A stretch of 51,364 bases of DNA from a virus. The number at the start of each line of letters is the position of its first letter. Positions within the stretch are counted from its first letter, which is position 1. The position numbers were made by a program, and so were the translations under genes. Location: positions 1-51,364 of the IMG/VR virus record IMGVR_UViG_3300030104_002039; one strand, given 5' to 3'. Shown here piece by piece: positions 773 to 22,351 of the stretch. The notes below the pieces were generated by a model. That model was given only the letters and a program-made list of their open reading frames with translations, had not been told where the DNA came from and made no database searches.

Positions 773-2643
773 ATAACGACTTAAATAAAAAAATATTATC
801 TGATTTAACTGTGCATATGAAGTACGCTAAATTTATACCAGAGTTAAACAGAAGAGAGACATGGGAAGAATTGGTTACGAGGAATAAAGAAATGCACCAA
901 AAAAGATATCCACAACTAACAGATGAAATACAATTAGCATATAAATATGTTTATGATAAAAAAGTTTTACCATCTATGCGATCGCTTCAGTTTAGCGGCA
1001 AGCCAATTGAGATTTCGCCGAATCGATTATACAACTGTAGCTACTTACCTATCGACCACGTTGATAGCTTTAGTGAGTGTATGTTCCTTTTGCTATCTGG
1101 TTGTGGTGTTGGTTATAGTGTTCAAAAACACCATATAAATTTATTACCTCACATAACAAAGCCTTTTGAAGGAAGAACAAGAAGATTTGTTATTGGTGAC
1201 AGTATTGAGGGTTGGTCAGACTCTATTAAGGTTTTAATCAAGTCTTATTTAGGCTCTAGGAGATCATCTAAGATAAAATTTGATTATTCTGACATTAGAC
1301 CTAAAGGAGCTAGGCTGGTAACTTCAGGTGGAAAAGCTCCCGGGCCTCAACCATTAAAAGAATGTTTAGTAAAAATTAAAGGAATATTAGATGCTAAAGA
1401 AGATGGTGCAAAACTTACAACGCTTGAAGTTCATGATATTGTATGTTATATTGCTGATGCTGTGCTCGCAGGTGGTATTAGACGGGCCGCGCTAATATCT
1501 TTGTTTTCAGCGTATGATGAAGAAATGATATCTTGTAAATCAGGTAATTGGTGGGAGAAAAACCCACAAAGAGGTAGAGCTAATAACTCTGCTGTTTTAA
1601 TGAGACATAAAATAACAAAGGAATTTTTCTTAGATTTGTGGAAACGTATTGAATTATCCGGAGCTGGTGAGCCAGGAATATATTTTAATCATGATAAAGA
1701 TTGGGGAACTAATCCATGTTGTGAAATAGCCCTAAGGCCATATCAATTCTGTAATCTTTGCGAAGTTAATGTAAGTGATATCACAAGCCAAGAAGATCTT
1801 AATGCTCGCGTTAAGGCCGCATCTTTTATAGGCACGCTTCAAGCGGGTTATACGGAATTCCACTATCTAAGAGAAATATGGCAAGAAACAACAGAGAAAG
1901 ACGCACTTATAGGTGTGTCAATGACAGGAATAGGGAGTGCCGCTGTGCTCCAAATGGATATGAAGGTCGCTGCAAGTATAGTGAAAAGAGAAAATACAAG
2001 AGTAGCAAAGCTAATAGGAATAAACAAAGCAGCTAGAACAACATGTGTTAAACCTGCAGGAACAACCTCTCTTGTACTTGGAACTTCTTCAGGTATTCAC
2101 GCTTGGCATAATGACTTTTATATTAGAAGATTACGTGTAGGTAAAAATGAACCTATATATAATTACTTAAAGAAAAATAATCCGGATTTAGTTGCGGATG
2201 AATATTTTAGACCTCATGATACCGCTGTTATTGAAATACCACAATCAGCTCCAAAAGGTTCTATATTAAGAACTGAATCTGCTTTTGACTTACTCAAAAG
2301 AGTTAAACAAGTTGCTACCGAATGGGTTAAACCTGGACACCGTAAAGGTTCTAATACTCACAACGTGTCTGCAACAATAAGTTTAAAAGCAAATGAATGG
2401 GATAAGGCTGGAAAATGGATGTGGGATAATAGAGAGTGTTATAATGGTTTATCAGTACTACCTTATGATGGTGGTAGTTACACTCAGGCTCCGTTTGAAG
2501 ATATAACAAAGCAAGAGTTTAATAAGAGAGTCAAACTCTTAAACGATGTAGATTTATCTAACATTGTTGAAACAACTGACGAAACTGATCTATCTGGTGA
2601 ATTAGCCTGTGCCGGTGGATCTTGTGAAATAACGGGCTTATAA
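769..2643 (+). CDS. nrdJ: Adenosylcobalamin-dependent (class II) ribonucleoside-triphosphate reductase
   Basis: A 624-residue enzyme that would reduce ribonucleotides to deoxyribonucleotides for phage DNA synthesis. Active-site residues line up with the monomeric Lactobacillus-type enzyme: C90 (NCSYL) and C328 as the redox pair, N315/C317/E319 in NPCCEI as the radical site with the usual 11-residue step from C317 to C328, and a C-terminal shuttle pair C614/C619 (CAGGSC) with the expected spacing of five. No glycyl-radical motif or small subunit gene is present, which argues against classes III and I. It is somewhat shorter than the roughly 740-residue Lactobacillus enzyme, with reduced N-terminal regulatory sequence. 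It starts in an ATGA overlap with the nuclease. The cofactor must come from the host. Confidence 0.92.
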   Translation: MNNDLNKKILSDLTVHMKYAKFIPELNRRETWEELVTRNKEMHQKRYPQLTDEIQLAYKYVYDKKVLPSMRSLQFSGKPIEISPNRLYNCSYLPIDHVDSFSECMFLLLSGCGVGYSVQKHHINLLPHITKPFEGRTRRFVIGDSIEGWSDSIKVLIKSYLGSRRSSKIKFDYSDIRPKGARLVTSGGKAPGPQPLKECLVKIKGILDAKEDGAKLTTLEVHDIVCYIADAVLAGGIRRAALISLFSAYDEEMISCKSGNWWEKNPQRGRANNSAVLMRHKITKEFFLDLWKRIELSGAGEPGIYFNHDKDWGTNPCCEIALRPYQFCNLCEVNVSDITSQEDLNARVKAASFIGTLQAGYTEFHYLREIWQETTEKDALIGVSMTGIGSAAVLQMDMKVAASIVKRENTRVAKLIGINKAARTTCVKPAGTTSLVLGTSSGIHAWHNDFYIRRLRVGKNEPIYNYLKKNNPDLVADEYFRPHDTAVIEIPQSAPKGSILRTESAFDLLKRVKQVATEWVKPGHRKGSNTHNVSATISLKANEWDKAGKWMWDNRECYNGLSVLPYDGGSYTQAPFEDITKQEFNKRVKLLNDVDLSNIVETTDETDLSGELACAGGSCEITGL

Positions 2644-2657
2644 CTAAAACAATTATT

Positions 2658-3056
2658 ATGAAAAAACTATTTTTAATGGCAAGTCTTATTTTTGCTACAA
2701 CTTTATGTTCTGCGCAGTTCTTGGCTATAACAACCATAAACACGCCAGAAGATAATGCAGAGTGGGAAATGTCAAACGTCACCGATAACATAGGTGTTGG
2801 CTACATATTTACTGACAAAATAGTAGCTGGACTTGTAAAAAACGGTGAAGAGTACGATCTGTGGGGTAGATACCATTTTAGTAACTGCTACGCAGCTGTA
2901 CAAGCTCCTATGGAAGAAGCAACCGACAACATGATGTTCGGTGTTGGTTATTCTATGAAAGTTTGGAAAGACTTATATGTTGATCCAAGCTATATGATGT
3001 CTACGAAAGAAGACTCAGAGGGAGAGTTTAGGTTAGGAATATCTTATCGATTTTAA
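2658..3056 (+). CDS. Small outer-membrane beta-barrel-like protein
   Basis: A 132-residue protein with a clear Bacteroidetes-type signal peptide (residues 1-19, cleavage after CSA before Gln). The mature part is made of short alternating strands (GVGYIFTD, DLWGRYHF, MFGVGYSMKV, FRLGISYRF) and ends in a terminal Phe, the usual signature of outer-membrane barrels recognised by the BAM machinery. Only about six to eight strands fit, so it is a small barrel. It lies 15 bases after the reductase gene and is the last gene before a terminator. The role is unknown; masking or altering a surface receptor is one inference. Similar length and ending to OmpW/OprF-like small barrels, but no specific family was recognised. 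Confidence 0.6.
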   Translation: MKKLFLMASLIFATTLCSAQFLAITTINTPEDNAEWEMSNVTDNIGVGYIFTDKIVAGLVKNGEEYDLWGRYHFSNCYAAVQAPMEEATDNMMFGVGYSMKVWKDLYVDPSYMMSTKEDSEGEFRLGISYRF

Positions 3057-3080
3057 TTCAAATATTTATTAAATAATAAA

Positions 3081-3105
3081 GGGAGCTTTTTAGCTCCCTT
3101 TTTTT
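3081..3105 (+). terminator. Rho-independent terminator between convergent transcription units
   Basis: A perfect inverted repeat GGGAGCT–AGCTCCC (3081-3098) is followed by an unbroken run of seven T on the plus strand. It sits 24 bases after the plus-strand operon. The minus strand also has a T-rich but broken tail beyond the stem, so it may stop the long leftward transcript as well. Confidence 0.88.
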
Positions 3106-3181
3106 ATAATGCTATCAAAAAGATAGTGATCATTAGTACTAAGTATATAACCGCACTAAGATCTTTGGTTTGTGTTTCCAT
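3104..3181 (-). CDS. 25-residue single-span membrane peptide (holin-like candidate)
   Basis: A complete small reading frame starts with ATG at 3181 and ends with TAA at 3104-3106. Its product is METQTKDL followed by a 17-residue hydrophobic stretch (SAVIYLVLMITIFLIAL). It would form one transmembrane helix with a short charged N terminus. It is the last possible gene of the leftward region, directly after the M15 endolysin, and reaches into the T-run of the terminator. The leader is A/T-rich without a Shine-Dalgarno sequence, as for the other genes here. Position and shape suggest a lysis accessory or mini-holin, but a holin of the 3-TM type is encoded at 49.5 kb, so the function is open. Confidence 0.45.
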   Translation of the reverse strand: METQTKDLSAVIYLVLMITIFLIAL

Positions 3182-12787: not shown

Positions 12788-15700
12788 CTATCTTTGTATA
12801 ATAACTCTCTTTTTTTTGCTATCCTTTTTAGATTGTTTTTCTTTGTCTTTTTTCTTGTTTTCTTTTTCTTGCTCTTTTAATTTCTTTTTTCTTCTTTTTA
12901 TTTCTTCTTTTGTTTGAAGTAAATCTTGATCTTTAATGCCAAGATCCCAAGTATTCCAACCTAAAAGTAAAGCTATTCTCTGCCAAGTTTCATTATTAGA
13001 ATCCAAAACATTATCTATGTTTAACATTTTGTTAGATATTCTACCAAGAGGCAAATTAGTAACACCTTCTACAACGTTTCCAATAGCGCTCCAAGTTGGG
13101 TTATCTAAAGTAAAACCTCTTTCTTTCATTACTTCTCTATTGTATTTTTCAGTTTGTATAGATGAGTATATTTTTCTAAGCTTAGAGCCAATTGGTGGTG
13201 AAAAGCCAATAGCTTGTAGCAACGTATATGTTTGGTCAGCATTCCAACCTTTATCTCTTTGCTTTTGATATTCTCTTACAGTATTTTTTGCAGCACCAAT
13301 GGCTTTACCGCCGTAACCTATACCCGCTAACCAAGAATCAACCATTCCATTAATTATTCTTTCTTTCTTTTTGTCATACTCTTCTTCGTCTTCATCTCCA
13401 ATAACAGCAAACAAAGCAGATTGCATAGCGCCAAATATTATACTTTGAATAACGCCGTAGTATATTATTTTAGACATATGCGTTTTGTAATCACCTCTAC
13501 GATTTGTAATATCCCTAGCTGCTTTGTTCATTATTCTAGCATATTGCATTGGTGTGTTTTGAAAAGATAATATTAACCTACCAAGTGGAGAGGCTTGTTG
13601 TTGTGATATCATATCAGGCCTTGCTGATTGCTGTGATACTTCTGTAGCTTCTTGAAAATCTAAAAATGCTTTTAACTCAGCGTCTGCTTTTGACATACCT
13701 TGTTTTACATATGAATTAACTCTATTTCTATAAAAACTAGCACCACCAGAAGCAATAGCAAAACTATCCGCAATTTGCGTAGGTAAAAAACCTTTTTTAA
13801 GTAACCAACGTATTACCGCTTTACTTTGCTCATAAGCACCAACGCCTTTTACAGCTTGTGATAATTCAGCTTCATTTATACCTCTTTTGTTACCAGATCT
13901 TCTTTGTTTTAAGAAGTCAGAATTAAATAGCATTGTAAAATCAGACCAAAATTGTTTTTGATTAGCAAAAGCCATACCTGCTTTAAGTGGGTTGTTGTCG
14001 CTCCAATTAATATAGTTAGTAGCAGATATAGTTTGTAGTATTGCAGATCTCATATTAAAGAACATAATAGCACCAACAGAACCGTTAACCCAATTCATAT
14101 ACTCATTCATTATTCTACTATTACCAGTAGGTCTATTTCTACCGTTTTTCATACGATAGATTACATCTTCTAAAGCTTCTCTAAACTTACTACCGTATAT
14201 TGCCTCTATTTTATTTAAGTTTTCTTTAGAGAATATAACATCTACATTTGCTTGCCACTCTTGTAATACTTCCGCTCTACCAGTATCTACAGATTGTTCG
14301 CTTAATAAATCAGAATTAATATTTTCCACAAACCAATATTCACCAGGTTTTGTATAACCCTCTTTCTTTTTAGATATTAAACTTATAGTTTCAGCAAAAG
14401 ATTGTAATTCAGTGTCATTTTTAATAATACCATCTAAAGTTTCTATATTTTTCTTTGATAAACCTGGTATATCAAAACCTGCTTTATTCCACAAGTAAAC
14501 TCTCACGGCTTGGTCATAAGTAAAATCAGTACCAGTTATTTTCTTTTTTAATTTTTTCTTAATTTTAGGTGATTGTTTGAATAAGTTTTTTAAATCATTA
14601 GCTTTAGCTTGTCTAGAACTATTTAACTCGTCTACACCTCTAGCAAAAGGATCAACTAAAGCTTTCTTGAAAAAAGCTAAATCATTTTCACCTTCTTTAC
14701 CCTTGCCTAAAAAGTTGTATAATAATCCCATGAAATCTTGAGCAGATGCTGGTATTATAGATTTATACTTTGTTTTTCTACCGGCCAACTTAGCTTCAAC
14801 ATTGTCAAACTGTTTTTCAGAATCAATACCTGTTACTCTTTCTAATATATCATTAAAGTTTTTACTCATACCCTTGCTAAACTTAGTTTTAGCTTGCTGA
14901 ACCTTAGACTTAACGTCAAATTGTTCTAACATGTTAGCTACAGCTTGTACATTTTGTAAGGCATCATCAGCAAAATAAAAGTCATTGTAGCCCTCACCAA
15001 CTTTTTCAGCCATCCAAAGAGCTTTAGCCTCAGCGGTAGAGTTAGCTAAACCAGTAATGTTTTTTAAAGGTATGTTTAATCCATTAGCTTTTAAGAAAGT
15101 GTGTATTGCTAAAGCTGATTCTTCTGGTCTAGCTGTTAATACAAACATGTCTTTATTACCAAACTTACTTTGTAGTTTTAAAGCTTTATTAAACAACGGC
15201 GCTGTCTTACCTTTTACTACCTTTGTGAATTCAGAAAAATCAAACTCATACCCTTGTCCTAATAGGTCTTCGTAAGTTCTAGCGTATTCCTCAGCGTTCA
15301 ACTTACCTTTAGTGCCATCTGGCCTTGTAAATCTAATTCTAGACTTAGTAGTAGCTAATGTATCATCAAAATCTAAAACAGTAATTCCTTTTGTTTTGGC
15401 TTTAGGGTTACGAGATTGTTTAGTAGCCATATCCATAGTCATTCCTATTTCAGTAGAATTCAACAGTGATTTATTTATCTTGCTTACGAAAGCGTCCATA
15501 TTAGCTTTGTTAGCTAAGTTAAACGATGATTTAGTGGGAAAGTTTGTCTTAGATTTAGAGTCTATAATAGGTTCTATTCTAATTGTAGTTGCATAAGTAT
15601 TACCTTTTGTTGATCTTGGTTTGGAACCAACGTTCATTCTTGATATTAATTCAAAAGTTCCAGTTATATCACCATTTGTATCTTCACCTAACCTAGGTAT

Positions 15701-18700
15701 ACCAAGTTCGTTTGCTATTCTAACGACCATAGCGTTAACGTTAGGATTGCTACCTAACATGTAATATGCTCCAGCCTCGCCAATATTAATGAAATACTCA
15801 GGTATTGCTTTGTTAGTATAATGATACTCTAAATATGCAGCTGTAACAGATTCACTGTGAATAAACATGTTCTTATGTATCATTAAATCTTTACGTTGAC
15901 TAGCATCTACACCTTTTTTGAAATCCATACCAATAAACCTAGGATCATTCATTGTTTCTAAAATCTTTTTCTTAAGGTTGTTTTGTGCTGTTGTATTTGT
16001 TGGGTTTGGATTTGTAGTTGGTCCCTCCCATTTCCAAGTAACAGAAACCGCTCTTGCTGAATCCATTTTTATTTCAAGACCCATAGAAACACCATTGGTA
16101 GTTGTAAAATGAACATCTGGTATACCTCCCTCTCTAACGTATGGGTTTACTACTACAGTTTTTATACCCTTAACTTTAAGTTTTTTTACTGCATTCTCGG
16201 CTAGTTCAATAAAAAATTGCTCGTATATAGTACTAACTTTTAACTTTTTTCTTCCTTTTAATTTGTTTTTAATAAATTTTACTATAGTTTTATTATCTAC
16301 TCTTTCCATACCTCTGTTAACATAAGCATCAACAGTAACGTCTACTATAAATTTACCACCATACTTGTTAGCATCTTTTTCTGACAAGTTTCTATAATAA
16401 TTAATTTTACCTTGATCGTTAAACTCATTATTGTAGTTCCATAAATCATTTAATACTTTTTGTGCACCACTAAAATCTACATAAACTTTATCACCTACTA
16501 TTTTAATAGATCTATTTTTATATGTTACCTTAATATCTTTTCTTCCTTCACTAAATTTAACATTAGGATCTCTTTGTATTGTTCTCGCTAAATTATCTAA
16601 GTCGTTTTGTAATATTTCAACATTGTTTAGTTCAGCTATCTCTTGTCGTTTTTGAACCACGTCAGGTTCTTGAGCTACTTGTAAAATAGCATCGTATGCC
16701 AAAGCACCAGCTATATTTCTAGCTAAAGTATCTTTTCTAGTTCCACGCTTACCAGATCTTTGACCTGTAACAGGGTTAAACGATGGTATATCAAAATAAG
16801 ATAAAAACTCTGCTTCAGTAGGTATTCTTTTTGTATATAAATTCACAGCTTGGCCTTTACCTATTGTAACTAAAGCGCTTTCAGGTAATAAGTTTTGATT
16901 TACTGCTGCTTCAACATCTTCTATGTTTGTAAGTTTTTTAACAAACTTAGTAAATATTTTTTGATCATCTGGTACGTTTCTTTCTAATTGAACTAAATCA
17001 GAAACAAATAAAGAATTCATTATAGGTACTCTAAACTTTTTTAAATTACTAGTATATTGTTTAGTACCTAATAAGTTTTTAATCTCTTTAAATATATAAC
17101 TATTAGCCTGATCTCTTAGTTTTCTTTGTATGTTTCTTGCTGATGTGCCAGTTTCATATGCTTTTAATAAAGCTTGACGTGCTGCATCTAAAACTTTATT
17201 ATACATTTGATCTCCAGTTTCGATACCAAGTTCTTTTCTAAAATCAGACTCTCTTTGAACTTTGTCTTGCTCTTTTTGAGCTTTTTCTCTAGCTCTTGCA
17301 GCAGGAGATATATCTTTCTCTTCAAACTCTTTCATTCTAGAGTCTTCTTCAGCCGCAACTTGAACTTTTACATCACCTTCTTTTGTTCTATCGTCTACGT
17401 CTTTAGCTCTTTTCTCTTGCTCTGTTTTCTTATATATTTTGTTGTAAACATCACCCGCTCTAAATGTAATTCTACCTTGTAAGTAACCAAATAAACTATC
17501 GTTTTCTTCTGGATTAAAGTTCTTTATATCTTTTGTTAATTCTGACATAACATCACTAACAAAATTAACAGGTACTTTATCCGCTTTATATTTAGCGGCT
17601 ATTAAATTATCTAAATAACCTTTTTCTTTTATTTGTTTTATAATACTGTCTACTTCTGCTTGATAAAGAAACTTACCTACACCTTTTTCTCTAAGATTAT
17701 TACCATCTTGATCTACTTTACCAAGCTTATCAATTTGATTTTTTATGTCAGCTTTTTGTTTAGATGTCATAGATCTTTTAGTAACAAAATCTTCTTCACC
17801 TGTTAAACCTTTTTTCTTTCTAGCTTTAATTCTTCTTTTAGCTAGTTTAGGTGCTTTTGTTTTTCCAGGGCTTTCTTGAAAAGACTTTAAAAAACTACCC
17901 ATATAAACAGCAGCGTCTTTATCTGTTTTTATTTTATAATCTTGAGATAAAACATTTGCCCAACTTTGAGAAAGACCTGTTATACTTTTTAAATCATCTT
18001 TTGATGCGTATCTAGTATCTCCAGCTGGAACCATTTGAAATATCTCTTGAACACTTCTAGTATATTCATCAAAAAACCGCTTAGCAAACTGTTCTTTTGT
18101 TTCTGCCCTTGCTTCTTTTTCTGTGTATTTTTTACCAGTTTTTTCGTTTATTGTTCCTTTTTTCAATATATCATTAACAACATAATCTTCTACGTATTTT
18201 GAAGAGTATTCAGGAGTTCCATCGTTATTTAATCTATAGTTTCCAATATTAGATTGTCTACGTATAGCTTCGTCGTGTATTTTTTTAAAATTATTTTTAA
18301 TATAATTATGTAGCTTTTTATTATAATCAAACAAACCAGCTTCGTCAAAAGCTTTAAAATCTAAAGCATGACTAAACTCGTGAGCTATAGCTGTTGCGGG
18401 TAAAATATTACCAGCCTCTAATTGTTTTCTAGCCGCTGTTTCACTTCTAACTATATAAGTTCCTTTAGCCCCATGATTACCTCTAATAAAAGCATTTGTA
18501 GCACCACTAGCAACACTAACAAACATATCGTTTATATTACGTTTATTTATTTCTTTTGCTTTATCTATTTCAATCTTTTTTTGTTCTTTAGATATATCTC
18601 TTGAGTTTATTTCATCTATATCTCTCTGAAGTGAATCTTCATATGCTTCTTTAATTGCTTTTTTAAGCTCTGTATTGTTTTTTGCTGACTTATAGCTAAT

Positions 18701-21700
18701 ACCATCTAAATCTTCATCTTTAAGCATATCTATAATAGCATTGTTCTGCTTAGTAGTCATAACAATTGCTTTGTCTGTTTTAGCCATTGTTAAAGCTCCT
18801 ATTTGTCTATGGATATCGTTTTCTTTTTTTATATCTCTATTTTTTCTTTTTTTACCGTCTTTTGTTTTAGCATTGTCAAATCCACCTGGGCCATATGTCA
18901 TTTCATCAACAAACTGTTCGTTTTCAGGTCTAGTTCTACTTACGGCAACCTGACTATTACCCATTAATCGTTTAAACTCATTATGAACAGCAATAGCCTG
19001 CTCTTTAGGATCAGCGTTTTTTAGATTAGGATTTTTATCTTTTAAACTATTTAACATTATATCAGCATCTTCACCATAAACATCTTTAATTATAGTCATG
19101 TAGTCTTTGCCGCTGTCTAAAATAGATTTTTTAGTTTCTAATGCAGAGTTATAATCTTTCATAAACTTTTTTCTCTTCTCTGGATTTAATCCCTCTGCAT
19201 AATCTTTTAAAAGCTTTTCCTTTTTTTTACTGTCCATAGTAGGGTCAATTCCAGCTTTTGTCAGTAGCTCTTCTTCAAGTTTTCCTGCTATAAGAAGTTG
19301 TTGAAGTTTTTTACCACTTAAACCCATTGCTTTTAGCTCAACCTCACTGTTCACATTAGTTATACTAGAGTTGATTTCACCTAATTGACTTGCTAAAAGT
19401 TTTCTTCTTGCAGGATCTTTCTCATCACGCAGTTCGGCCTTTTTTAACTTGTGTTGTTTAGTTAATTCTTTAAGATATTTTCTTATTGGAGCATTAGCTA
19501 CTTGATTAGTTACTGTAGAGTAAAAAGCACCTGTTCCGTTCATTGGTCCAGCTACTATTGCCGCATTAACAACAACTTCATCCCAATTGCTCATATCAAA
19601 GTCTTTACCAAGAAACGCGACATTACTAAGAGCTTCACCACCATATATAACATATTCCTCAAGTGACTCTAAAGTCATGCCCCCTACAGTAGTAAGAGGC
19701 ATGTTGTAAAGAAAAGCCTTAGTATTACCTCTAGTAACTCTCTCTGCTGTTCTTGCTACTAAATCTTTTCCCCCTATTTGTCTAGCATATTTAACAGATG
19801 GAAGACCACCTATATACCTAACGGCCAAACCTTCAACTATCATAGCGCTAGCTATAGAGGCAGTTTTTTGATACCACTCATAGTCATTTTCTTCTATAGC
19901 CATATCTAGCTCAAGCATTAGATCTTTATACTTTTCTTCTGGTATACCTCCTTTTTGATATGCAGCCGTTAGTTCTTCTTTCGTTTTTTTCCACTCTTCA
20001 ACGTTTTCACTAGCGTTCCATAATTGAATTCTTTTACCACCACCAGCTGGAAGAGCAAATATAGCGCCTTGAGACCACAATACTGTTTTAGCGCTAAGAT
20101 TAAGAGCTGTACCTGTCCCTGCCGTAGCTAAACTAGTAAATACCATAGCATTGTTTTCTGCAAAAGCTTGTTTTGCGTACTCCCATTTTTTACCATGCTC
20201 AATAGCTTGTTTATAAGTTAATTGTGGAAATGATTTTAAATAATCTTGCTCTTCTTGATTGTAAGCTTCTTTAGCACTTTCGCTACCAAAAAGAGCTCCT
20301 ATTTCATAAATTGATTGGCTCCAACTTTTGCCCCAAGCATAATCCTCTTTAGCTTCTGGGTCATAGCTCATATCTAATACTTGTCCTCTATTTCTAAGTA
20401 ATTCTGCTTTTTCTAGGTTTTTATCTCTTATAGTTTTGTACTCTATAAAAGCGGCTTCATATTTATCATAAAGTGTTTCGGCCTCATATTGCCATTTACC
20501 TATTTTTCCAGCGTATTCATATAAAAGTTTTTCTTTTTTAGGATCTATAGATTGTCCTACGTTTGGGTTTTTGTAACTTACTTCCCACACATTGTTAACT
20601 AATTTTAAGTCAAAATCTTCTGCAATAGCGCCGCCAAATATTTCATCTCTTTCCTTGATCTTTAAATTATAATCTTTTAAATATATCTCATTAATAGCTT
20701 TGACATTTTCTTCGTTAGCTCTATCGTTTTCTTTTAACTCCATTACATCTAAAAAATCAACTGTAGCTATTGTGTTTTGAACACTCCTATCTTCAAATTG
20801 AAGTATTTCAGACATGGCTTTTGCACCAACCTTACTCTCAATTCCGGCTTTCTTTATAGTGGCTCTTCTTTTCGTATTTAACGTTTCGTATTGCTCAGGT
20901 GTTATATTACCTTCTAAAGCATACTTAAGCATAAAATCAGTCAAATTAAGACCTTGAACAGTTTCTCCTGAAATAGTACCCACAGCTTTTCTACCGGATA
21001 TATTGTAATTTCTATCTCCTGAAAAAACATAACCCTGAGGGTCTTTACCCGCAAAACCTACGTTATAACTACCATCTCCACTAGCAGCGCCTCTAAAAAT
21101 AACTTCCCCATCTTTTTCAACTACATAATAATTATATGTATCTCCCATTATCATATTTGTGAGTTGTGCCGCATATTTACCTGGCGCTGGACGGTTTCCC
21201 TTTCTTATTGTCAACCCTATATTCTTGTATAACTCTGCTGTTTTATCTACATCTAATAACTCATTATAATCATCAATATCATTACTTTCAAATTTATTAG
21301 CTTTAAAATCAAGGGCTACAGCATGTGCTTGTGGATTTTCTACTTCTGATTTCCTGTAGTCTAATATTTTTTGAATAACTTCTTGCGCTTCTCTTGGATC
21401 ACCACCTATACCAAAAGTACCAGCTTGAAGATTTATTTTAAAATTACCTTCATTAGGAATATGAACCTGTATAGCTTCACCAAGTCCTGTTTGTTCAAAT
21501 CTAATTCCAGTTTGTTGTTCTATATTACCACCAACATCTACTCCAAATAAAGTTTGCATCCACTCGTTTTTAAAGTTTTCTTCAGTCATGTCAGCAACTT
21601 CTTTTGTATTTGTTGTTGCTCCATTAAAGTAATATTCCTTATCTTCTTTACTCATAGGGGTTTTTAAGCCATCTTGCTTTGATATCCAAGTTTTTAAATC

Positions 21701-22351
21701 TTTCCAATTCCTTTGCGCTTCTGGTTTGTCTACGTTAACTTCTAGCGTGTAAAAATTATCTGGATCAACCTCTCCGTTTGGATTGTTAGGTGCAAAAACT
21801 TTTATATAACCATCACCTTCCCATGTACCATCATCAGTAGTAATACCATAATCTCCAAAATACGTTTCAATATTAATCATAGATGTCATCTCGTTTTGAG
21901 ATACTTGCCATCCATCTGTGAATTTATCTTTGTTTAAAATTTCTGATCTAAGAGCCTTATCTCTTTCTGTTTCTTGAAAGTTAACTTTTTCTTCTTCAAA
22001 ATCAAATAGTTTATCAGTTCTTTGTGTTTGCCAAGCTTCTTCATCGAAAGCATCACCCTGAGACTGCCTAAGCTCTTCTTCTTCTCTATCTAACTCAGCT
22101 GTAAATGTTTCTGTAGTATAACCAAGTTCCGCGTGAGATTGTTGCTCTTTACCTAAAAGCTCGTTAAAATAGTTTATTTGCTCAATACCAGGGCCCGATC
22201 CTGTAAACTCTTTATAAGCAACATCAATAGCAGTATCAAAATCTTTTGATAATAAATATTTTACATTACTTTCTAAACTTTCGTTAGAAATATCTGGTGC
22301 AAATTCAGAAAAAAATGCTCTATAAATCTTATCTTTTATTATGTCAGACAT
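12788..22351 (-). CDS. Giant ejection/internal virion protein with protease, nuclease and HAD motifs
   Basis: A 3187-residue protein, the largest gene here. Recognisable parts: a long N-terminal region with structural repeats; a hydrophobic zone near residues 725-770; a zinc-protease-like HEFSH at 1324-1328; a Lys/Glu-rich coiled zone at about 1550-1700; a PD-(D/E)xK-like nuclease pattern (P2078-D2079, E2093-x-K2095); a HAD-type phosphatase domain with DFDDT (D2327), VLTARPE and FYFADD; and a C-terminal membrane-active region (about 2957-2985) following a RLILSFQNTPMQYARI segment typical of large phage internal proteins. The C terminus is Lys-rich. It probably sits in the capsid or tail and enters the host with DNA. 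DFDDT fits HAD rather than the DxDGD site of phage virion RNA polymerases, so no polymerase is claimed. Confidence 0.78.
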   Translation of the reverse strand: MSDIIKDKIYRAFFSEFAPDISNESLESNVKYLLSKDFDTAIDVAYKEFTGSGPGIEQINYFNELLGKEQQSHAELGYTTETFTAELDREEEELRQSQGDAFDEEAWQTQRTDKLFDFEEEKVNFQETERDKALRSEILNKDKFTDGWQVSQNEMTSMINIETYFGDYGITTDDGTWEGDGYIKVFAPNNPNGEVDPDNFYTLEVNVDKPEAQRNWKDLKTWISKQDGLKTPMSKEDKEYYFNGATTNTKEVADMTEENFKNEWMQTLFGVDVGGNIEQQTGIRFEQTGLGEAIQVHIPNEGNFKINLQAGTFGIGGDPREAQEVIQKILDYRKSEVENPQAHAVALDFKANKFESNDIDDYNELLDVDKTAELYKNIGLTIRKGNRPAPGKYAAQLTNMIMGDTYNYYVVEKDGEVIFRGAASGDGSYNVGFAGKDPQGYVFSGDRNYNISGRKAVGTISGETVQGLNLTDFMLKYALEGNITPEQYETLNTKRRATIKKAGIESKVGAKAMSEILQFEDRSVQNTIATVDFLDVMELKENDRANEENVKAINEIYLKDYNLKIKERDEIFGGAIAEDFDLKLVNNVWEVSYKNPNVGQSIDPKKEKLLYEYAGKIGKWQYEAETLYDKYEAAFIEYKTIRDKNLEKAELLRNRGQVLDMSYDPEAKEDYAWGKSWSQSIYEIGALFGSESAKEAYNQEEQDYLKSFPQLTYKQAIEHGKKWEYAKQAFAENNAMVFTSLATAGTGTALNLSAKTVLWSQGAIFALPAGGGKRIQLWNASENVEEWKKTKEELTAAYQKGGIPEEKYKDLMLELDMAIEENDYEWYQKTASIASAMIVEGLAVRYIGGLPSVKYARQIGGKDLVARTAERVTRGNTKAFLYNMPLTTVGGMTLESLEEYVIYGGEALSNVAFLGKDFDMSNWDEVVVNAAIVAGPMNGTGAFYSTVTNQVANAPIRKYLKELTKQHKLKKAELRDEKDPARRKLLASQLGEINSSITNVNSEVELKAMGLSGKKLQQLLIAGKLEEELLTKAGIDPTMDSKKKEKLLKDYAEGLNPEKRKKFMKDYNSALETKKSILDSGKDYMTIIKDVYGEDADIMLNSLKDKNPNLKNADPKEQAIAVHNEFKRLMGNSQVAVSRTRPENEQFVDEMTYGPGGFDNAKTKDGKKRKNRDIKKENDIHRQIGALTMAKTDKAIVMTTKQNNAIIDMLKDEDLDGISYKSAKNNTELKKAIKEAYEDSLQRDIDEINSRDISKEQKKIEIDKAKEINKRNINDMFVSVASGATNAFIRGNHGAKGTYIVRSETAARKQLEAGNILPATAIAHEFSHALDFKAFDEAGLFDYNKKLHNYIKNNFKKIHDEAIRRQSNIGNYRLNNDGTPEYSSKYVEDYVVNDILKKGTINEKTGKKYTEKEARAETKEQFAKRFFDEYTRSVQEIFQMVPAGDTRYASKDDLKSITGLSQSWANVLSQDYKIKTDKDAAVYMGSFLKSFQESPGKTKAPKLAKRRIKARKKKGLTGEEDFVTKRSMTSKQKADIKNQIDKLGKVDQDGNNLREKGVGKFLYQAEVDSIIKQIKEKGYLDNLIAAKYKADKVPVNFVSDVMSELTKDIKNFNPEENDSLFGYLQGRITFRAGDVYNKIYKKTEQEKRAKDVDDRTKEGDVKVQVAAEEDSRMKEFEEKDISPAARAREKAQKEQDKVQRESDFRKELGIETGDQMYNKVLDAARQALLKAYETGTSARNIQRKLRDQANSYIFKEIKNLLGTKQYTSNLKKFRVPIMNSLFVSDLVQLERNVPDDQKIFTKFVKKLTNIEDVEAAVNQNLLPESALVTIGKGQAVNLYTKRIPTEAEFLSYFDIPSFNPVTGQRSGKRGTRKDTLARNIAGALAYDAILQVAQEPDVVQKRQEIAELNNVEILQNDLDNLARTIQRDPNVKFSEGRKDIKVTYKNRSIKIVGDKVYVDFSGAQKVLNDLWNYNNEFNDQGKINYYRNLSEKDANKYGGKFIVDVTVDAYVNRGMERVDNKTIVKFIKNKLKGRKKLKVSTIYEQFFIELAENAVKKLKVKGIKTVVVNPYVREGGIPDVHFTTTNGVSMGLEIKMDSARAVSVTWKWEGPTTNPNPTNTTAQNNLKKKILETMNDPRFIGMDFKKGVDASQRKDLMIHKNMFIHSESVTAAYLEYHYTNKAIPEYFINIGEAGAYYMLGSNPNVNAMVVRIANELGIPRLGEDTNGDITGTFELISRMNVGSKPRSTKGNTYATTIRIEPIIDSKSKTNFPTKSSFNLANKANMDAFVSKINKSLLNSTEIGMTMDMATKQSRNPKAKTKGITVLDFDDTLATTKSRIRFTRPDGTKGKLNAEEYARTYEDLLGQGYEFDFSEFTKVVKGKTAPLFNKALKLQSKFGNKDMFVLTARPEESALAIHTFLKANGLNIPLKNITGLANSTAEAKALWMAEKVGEGYNDFYFADDALQNVQAVANMLEQFDVKSKVQQAKTKFSKGMSKNFNDILERVTGIDSEKQFDNVEAKLAGRKTKYKSIIPASAQDFMGLLYNFLGKGKEGENDLAFFKKALVDPFARGVDELNSSRQAKANDLKNLFKQSPKIKKKLKKKITGTDFTYDQAVRVYLWNKAGFDIPGLSKKNIETLDGIIKNDTELQSFAETISLISKKKEGYTKPGEYWFVENINSDLLSEQSVDTGRAEVLQEWQANVDVIFSKENLNKIEAIYGSKFREALEDVIYRMKNGRNRPTGNSRIMNEYMNWVNGSVGAIMFFNMRSAILQTISATNYINWSDNNPLKAGMAFANQKQFWSDFTMLFNSDFLKQRRSGNKRGINEAELSQAVKGVGAYEQSKAVIRWLLKKGFLPTQIADSFAIASGGASFYRNRVNSYVKQGMSKADAELKAFLDFQEATEVSQQSARPDMISQQQASPLGRLILSFQNTPMQYARIMNKAARDITNRRGDYKTHMSKIIYYGVIQSIIFGAMQSALFAVIGDEDEEEYDKKKERIINGMVDSWLAGIGYGGKAIGAAKNTVREYQKQRDKGWNADQTYTLLQAIGFSPPIGSKLRKIYSSIQTEKYNREVMKERGFTLDNPTWSAIGNVVEGVTNLPLGRISNKMLNIDNVLDSNNETWQRIALLLGWNTWDLGIKDQDLLQTKEEIKRRKKKLKEQEKENKKKDKEKQSKKDSKKKRVIIQR

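Follow-up and report, generated by a model that had tools for sequence, protein, structure and literature searches.

A giant polyvalent-type protein of a marine podovirus-type phage, with a HAD phosphatase domain at a position shared in relatives with a P-loop kinase

What does a phage do with a single polypeptide of 3187 residues that bears protease-, nuclease- and phosphatase-like motifs? The question is raised by a gene on the record of an uncultured virus, 51,364 bases long and likely to be a fragment, which in its full length is referred to here as the window. A first-pass annotation had placed an open reading frame of 3187 residues at 12,788 bp–22,351 bp and read its product as a multi-effector, injected early to attack host DNA, proteins and phosphorylated substrates. 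The open reading frame was borne out and lies on the minus strand; the plus strand over the same stretch is full of stops. Its features are as follows.

12,788..22,351, minus strand: giant gene, polyvalent-type protein of 3187 aa, adjoining the virion-gene cluster (synteny)
22,136..22,333, minus strand: N-terminal 66-aa segment (residues 7–72), common to six relatives
18,842..20,308, minus strand: mid1 domain (residues 682–1170) with mildly hydrophobic segments, common to 14 relatives
17,672..18,634, minus strand: predicted zincin-like metallopeptidase region (residues 1240–1560); HEFSH 1324–1328; DEY (E1429) as candidate third ligand
16,547..17,632, minus strand: mid2 domain (residues 1574–1935), mostly helical, with a weak sigma-70 region 2-like look, common to 12 relatives
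15,482..16,519, minus strand: predicted PD-(D/E)xK nuclease region (residues 1945–2290); D2079, E2093, K2095; strands 2080–2083 and 2089–2095
14,852..15,406, minus strand: HAD phosphatase domain (residues 2316–2500); D2327, D2329, T2331; T2406; K2443; D2462, D2463
15,311..15,337, minus strand: HAD cap hairpin (about residues 2339–2347); the equivalent site in relatives holds a nested P-loop kinase
12,791..14,851, minus strand: conserved C-terminal helical core (residues 2501–3187), polyvalent-type, with a TM-like helix at 2967–2985 and a Lys-rich tail

All of the motifs that had been reported were located in the protein: HEFSH at residues 1324–1328, P2078-D2079 with E2093/K2095 (a PD...EIK pattern, 2078–2095) and, complete from residue 2327, the HAD set of DFDDT (2327–2331), VLTARP (2404–2409, reported as VLTARPE) and FYFADD (2458–2463). 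Chance levels were taken from 2000 shuffles of the giant's own sequence. HExxH arose in 0.7% of the shuffled proteins, D-h-D-x-T alone in 6%, and the full ordered HAD set in 0/2000. The PD..(D/E)xK pattern is worthless by itself, since 29% of the shuffles have one. At the level of sequence, it is conservation among relatives that settles the reality of the motifs. Membrane-active segments had also been claimed; residues 2967–2985 are indeed the sole segment with transmembrane-like hydropathy (1.77), whereas those at 749, 832 and 926 reached just 1.0–1.3.

With the whole giant as query there was no match above cut-off in Pfam and none in PDB sequences or named phages, and the first viral scan gave no relatives. 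The C-terminal 708 residues as query yielded 283 IMG/VR relatives, from which 80 loci were kept, each with up to 10 kb upstream; 69 giants among them formed the full-length set. The giants were mostly 2200 to 4000 residues long. Residues from about 2305 to 3160, comprising the HAD domain and the helical core, were common to nearly all relatives, and everything upstream of approximately 2305 was modular. With the window's giant included in the count, 15 proteins had mid1, 12 the profile of this zincin, 13 had mid2 and six had the nuclease. At one locus (L040:9902-12232) the giant gene seems to start within the HAD domain (777 aa), as a split gene or a frameshift. An extra Cys-rich tail with C..G.RC...C..H repeats, absent from the window's giant, was seen at several C-termini in our alignment of relatives (A2), and Pfam DUF5763 in 3/15. 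Within the window's protein, weak sigma factor matches recurred in the Foldseek list for residues 1566–1684 (17,300 bp–17,656 bp, minus strand; FNPEENDSLFGYLQGRI). A sigma-70 identity for this segment (FNPEENDSLFGYL) is unproven, RpoS giving an hhalign probability of 0.8 and an E-value of 0.07, and a Pfam search for a sigma domain in this region found no match.

The large terminase was 64% identical to that of the uncultured podovirus ctfjg026 (Manatee Spring) and 32–45% identical to those of Elemovirus, Maribacter phage Panino, Cellulophaga phages phi19:3 (Pachyviridae) and phi38:1 (Pervagoviridae), and Tenacibaculum phage Gundel_1. The portal was matched in all six, and the putative capsid and several tail-side proteins in the same relatives except Gundel_1. 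As in the window, the giant gene closes the virion cluster in ctfjg026, Elemovirus, Panino, phi19:3 and phi38:1; Gundel_1 differs, its giant 'structural protein' gp074 lying just before the terminase. Among the giants of these six phages, sequence similarity was found at the C-terminus of gp074 alone, and a search for HAD motif I (DFDxT), present in the window's protein, found it in none of them.

Beyond close homologues, structure matches in BFVD included large polyvalent and PolyVal-ADP-ribosyltransferase (PolyVal-ART) proteins (E-values from 2e-8 to 5e-5), and the Gundel_1 structural protein was matched at 6e-9. A Pfam sequence search of the giant gave no match to an LPD domain; the BFVD structural matches supply the recognised LPD or related domain of polyvalent proteins, and several distinct domains share the one phage polypeptide. 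The giant is therefore very likely a virion-associated polyvalent protein, a kind already described, as judged from homology and models and with 'structural' in Gundel_1 being an annotation. In the literature on virion proteomics of the relatives, PMC13288928 holds no gp101 data and PMC8776804 (Gundel) no mass spectrometry. Early injection, as the first-pass annotation had it, is plausible because of the virion-gene cluster, the homology to gp074 and the structural likeness to polyvalent proteins. A mainly structural or ejection-channel protein, its enzyme domains being remnants, would also account for a large helical C-terminal core with a TM-like helix, the adjoining virion cluster and an annotated structural homologue in Gundel_1; we consider this very unlikely, as even strongly diverged relatives keep the catalytic residues unchanged.

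Flavobacteriia are the hosts of the named relatives, and several metagenome-assembled contigs with the C-terminal core were labelled Bacteroidetes; other labels also occurred, and viral contamination of such assemblies is likely. We take the phage to be a marine, podovirus-type phage of Bacteroidetes-type bacteria. Elsewhere in the window are several further genes, all on the minus strand. An 801-aa predicted secreted protein (6191 bp–8596 bp) starts with what resembles a signal peptide, repeats the motif GC(T/M)D..NYN and bears a sorting tail of T9SS type A (TIGR04183, E-value 1.5e-10); it apparently uses the type IX secretion of the host. Downstream of the giant lies a cluster of small, very Lys-rich proteins (9116 bp–10,998 bp), of which one (9596 bp–9862 bp) has KKAPAKMKKA repeats and a histone H1-like look. 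Additionally, there were a thermonuclease-like gene (8748 bp–9131 bp; NucI model, E-value 1.5e-7), a thioredoxin-like protein that likewise begins in the manner of a signal peptide (11,001 bp–11,336 bp) and, near the giant, an acetyltransferase-like gene (25,383 bp–25,847 bp) that is kept in ctfjg026, Elemovirus and Panino. A 2853-aa tail-side protein (27,895 bp–36,456 bp) is about twice the length of most syntenic homologues (roughly 0.9–1.6 kaa), with similarity in blocks and large extra stretches between them.

HAD motif I was found in 65 of the 69 full-length giants; three of the other four have a kinase there, and the last is a truncated ORF. The D/D/T, T, K and DD columns were invariant in 51/51 aligned members. 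Structure prediction, the check that had been proposed, gave an AlphaFold model (pLDDT 80) with the strand and helix order of a HAD protein and with D2327, T2406 and D2462 at strand ends. The marks of the superfamily (DxDxT, a Thr/Ser motif II, Lys, an acidic motif IV and a Rossmann-like fold) are all present. A Foldseek search of the PDB with the model of the HAD domain and C-terminal core had no match with an E-value of 0.001 or below; HAD proteins were listed at high probability with poor E-values (the HAD phosphatase Ceg4 at 0.97 and 0.17), because the long helical core dilutes the match. When the HAD domain was searched as a profile against the PDB, just an unrelated oxidoreductase came up.

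As to family, the 'polynucleotide kinase' group phrog_415 was matched by 16/21 HAD members (best E-value 6e-8). T4 PseT, used as a control, matches phrog_415 via its phosphatase half (residues 154–298, E-value 3e-24). NCBIfam gave a weak DNA-3′-phosphatase match, and hhalign against T4 PseT aligned motif I alone. The HAD domain is thus closest to the T4 Pnkp 3′-phosphatase family, and activity on 3′-phosphates is predicted from this similarity. The joining of HAD, nuclease and metalloprotease had been called unusual, and for the HAD domain this holds: the survey of polyvalent proteins by Iyer et al. 2017 (PMC5512222) does not mention it in its main text, where the words haloacid, phosphatase and REase have 0 occurrences. 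A literature search found nothing joining 'polyvalent protein', 'haloacid dehalogenase' and phage, an absence in the searched literature that is not proof of novelty.

The window's giant has the HAD domain alone, with no kinase insert at the cap hairpin. Four relatives (L008, L015, L016 and L025) carry a P-loop kinase (GGAGSGK[S/G]) within the HAD domain, and three others (L074, L077 and L081) have the same kinase in its place. A dedicated scan revealed 51 kinase loci, forming 47 clusters at 95% identity. The kinase is nested at 41 of these, starting 34 residues past motif I of the HAD domain; motif II is intact there, as is the later acidic motif wherever the contig extends far enough. It replaces the HAD domain at seven, and the other three were assigned to neither class. 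The junction lies in the HAD cap hairpin. The position of the HAD domain is therefore a swap slot for a T4-PNK/zeta-like P-loop kinase, which is what is new here. By Pfam the kinase was about equally close to AAA_33 (5.8e-15) and Zeta_toxin (3e-14), and hhalign against the kinase half of T4 PseT gave a probability of 91 (E-value 1e-6). The system thus resembles T4 PseT/Pnkp in having a HAD domain of the 3′-phosphatase-half family and, in relatives, a swapped kinase like the kinase half. It differs from the tandem kinase and phosphatase of T4 Pnkp in that the relatives' kinase is inserted into the HAD cap hairpin or takes the place of the HAD domain, and does so within a giant protein.

The most economical reading, which these similarities suggest, sees the slot as one for healing nucleic-acid ends, holding a 3′-phosphatase, a 5′-kinase or both, with polynucleotide ends as the presumed substrate. 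RNA ligase models matched 0/48 and 1/48 of the relative contigs, which are fragments, the first of these searches having no positive control. RNA ligases are nearly absent from these contigs, and any ends that are healed would therefore need another ligase for sealing; the scarcity of RNA ligases weakens tRNA repair as the role. The same scarcity would suit a slot acting on nucleotides or small molecules (the nucleotide pool or cell-wall precursors, zeta-like) rather than on polynucleotide ends. The Zeta_toxin match, a close BFVD homologue annotated as UDP-N-acetylglucosamine kinase and the zeta-like kinases that the main text of PMC5512222 lists in polyvalent proteins, together with 2H phosphoesterases, lean the same way. 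We nevertheless hold this reading to be rather unlikely, given that the HAD profile matches the T4 Pnkp-type phrog_415 and that the nucleotidase family NT5C was not among the Pfam matches of the HAD domain up to an E-value of 1.

The zincin region bears on what the protein does to itself or to the host. Exactly one HExxH was present in 67 of the 69 full-length giants, and the two proteins of this set that have none are short (777 and 1391 aa). In aligned members the HExxH is retained, as is the glutamate of (D/E)EY downstream of it; a zincin-like domain with such a pair of features is common, though not obligatory, in polyvalent proteins. In a model of residues 1195–2300 (pLDDT 73, pTM 0.37), HEFSH lay on a helix following a beta hairpin and E1429 on a later helix. 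Foldseek against the PDB found no match to this model with an E-value of 0.001 or below and no zincin among the 50 matches listed. Relatives gave weak Pfam matches to the Peptidase_M91 effector family and M13, and a scan with the zincin region as query gave no relatives. A zincin is predicted here from conservation and modelled topology. The window has a second HExxH in a 140-aa protein (NHEMRHSTD; 50,407 bp–50,829 bp, minus strand), for which an NCBIfam search found no match.

For the nuclease, the D, E and K were kept in 6/6 strongly diverged homologues of the region, and the same model placed D2079 and E2093/K2095 at neighbouring strands, in keeping with the D...(D/E)xK arrangement that this superfamily has on adjacent strands of an alpha/beta core. 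A profile of the six proteins found no further clear member, and a scan with the region as query found one locus alone (L088, on the same contig as L080). In the PDB fold comparison, VRR_NUC 4qbn was matched at a Foldseek probability of just 0.10; the nuclease is predicted from motif conservation and topology. Most relatives have other modules in its place. Five (L038, L045, L047, L049 and L055) have, between mid2 and the HAD domain, a module with EHMxPT, conserved as (F/Y)EHM(V/I)PT and HNH-like in look.

The early-injected multi-effector of the first-pass annotation therefore stands in part, with three enzyme-like domains, a virion-cluster context and a plausible injection; the attack on phosphorylated substrates finds no support, the HAD domain being nearest to the T4 Pnkp 3′-phosphatase family and sharing its slot with a P-loop kinase, which points to the healing of nucleic-acid ends in counter-defence or repair. 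As a weapon, the giant would cut host proteins with the protease and host DNA with the nuclease, and dephosphorylate host substrates with the HAD domain. The domain set and polyvalent context, the HAD fold like that of the Legionella effector Ceg4 and the weak Peptidase_M91 effector matches in relatives fit such a role. It appears unlikely to us, since the interchange of HAD and kinase at one slot and the phrog_415 similarity favour nucleic-acid ends, and the presence of a single zincin in nearly all of the giants suggests a role in processing. That zincin fits self-processing at least as well as it fits a host-attacking protease.

Compared with known systems, the giant is like the polyvalent proteins of phages and conjugative elements in the survey in being a multidomain phage protein with a zincin hub, modular effectors and a structurally matching C-terminal core; zincins are the commonest hub in the main text of PMC5512222, where self-processing was proposed. 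Unlike the proteins described there, it has a HAD phosphatase, and its relatives a kinase nested in the HAD cap. The same text describes a metallopeptidase-like domain in the virion RNA polymerase of phage N4, likewise a giant protein. No RNA polymerase domain was found in the present giant, and the analogy is one of function only.

We give about an even chance to the reading as a whole, that of a virion-borne, self-processed polyvalent protein with a nucleic-acid end-healing slot. A podovirus related to Elemovirus and the Cellulophaga phages would carry the giant in its virion, the C-terminal helical core probably serving to package it alongside the ejection apparatus or close to it. From synteny and homology, it would be delivered together with the DNA. 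The most likely target of the zincin is the giant itself, as in the published polyvalent proposal; the cut would free modules at packaging or entry that would act on nucleic acids as infection starts. The PD-(D/E)xK nuclease would be one such module, and the HAD domain of T4 Pnkp 3′-phosphatase type would strip terminal phosphates off broken DNA or RNA. In relatives, where a 5′-kinase-like P-loop domain is joined to it or stands in its place, the slot would work like T4 Pnkp and may heal breaks inflicted by host defences or by the nuclease of the phage itself. More tentatively, and with the chances somewhat against it, a Pnkp-like activity injected in a self-processing giant before gene expression, with the kinase nested in the phosphatase cap in relatives, could undo break-making host defences at time zero.

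If this is true, nucleic-acid end healing would be one more kind of cargo that phages may inject on entry. The HAD cap with a kinase nested in it is a concrete, testable architecture in dozens of marine virus contigs, and the large set of giants with one zincin offers a place to test the self-cleavage proposed for polyvalent proteins.
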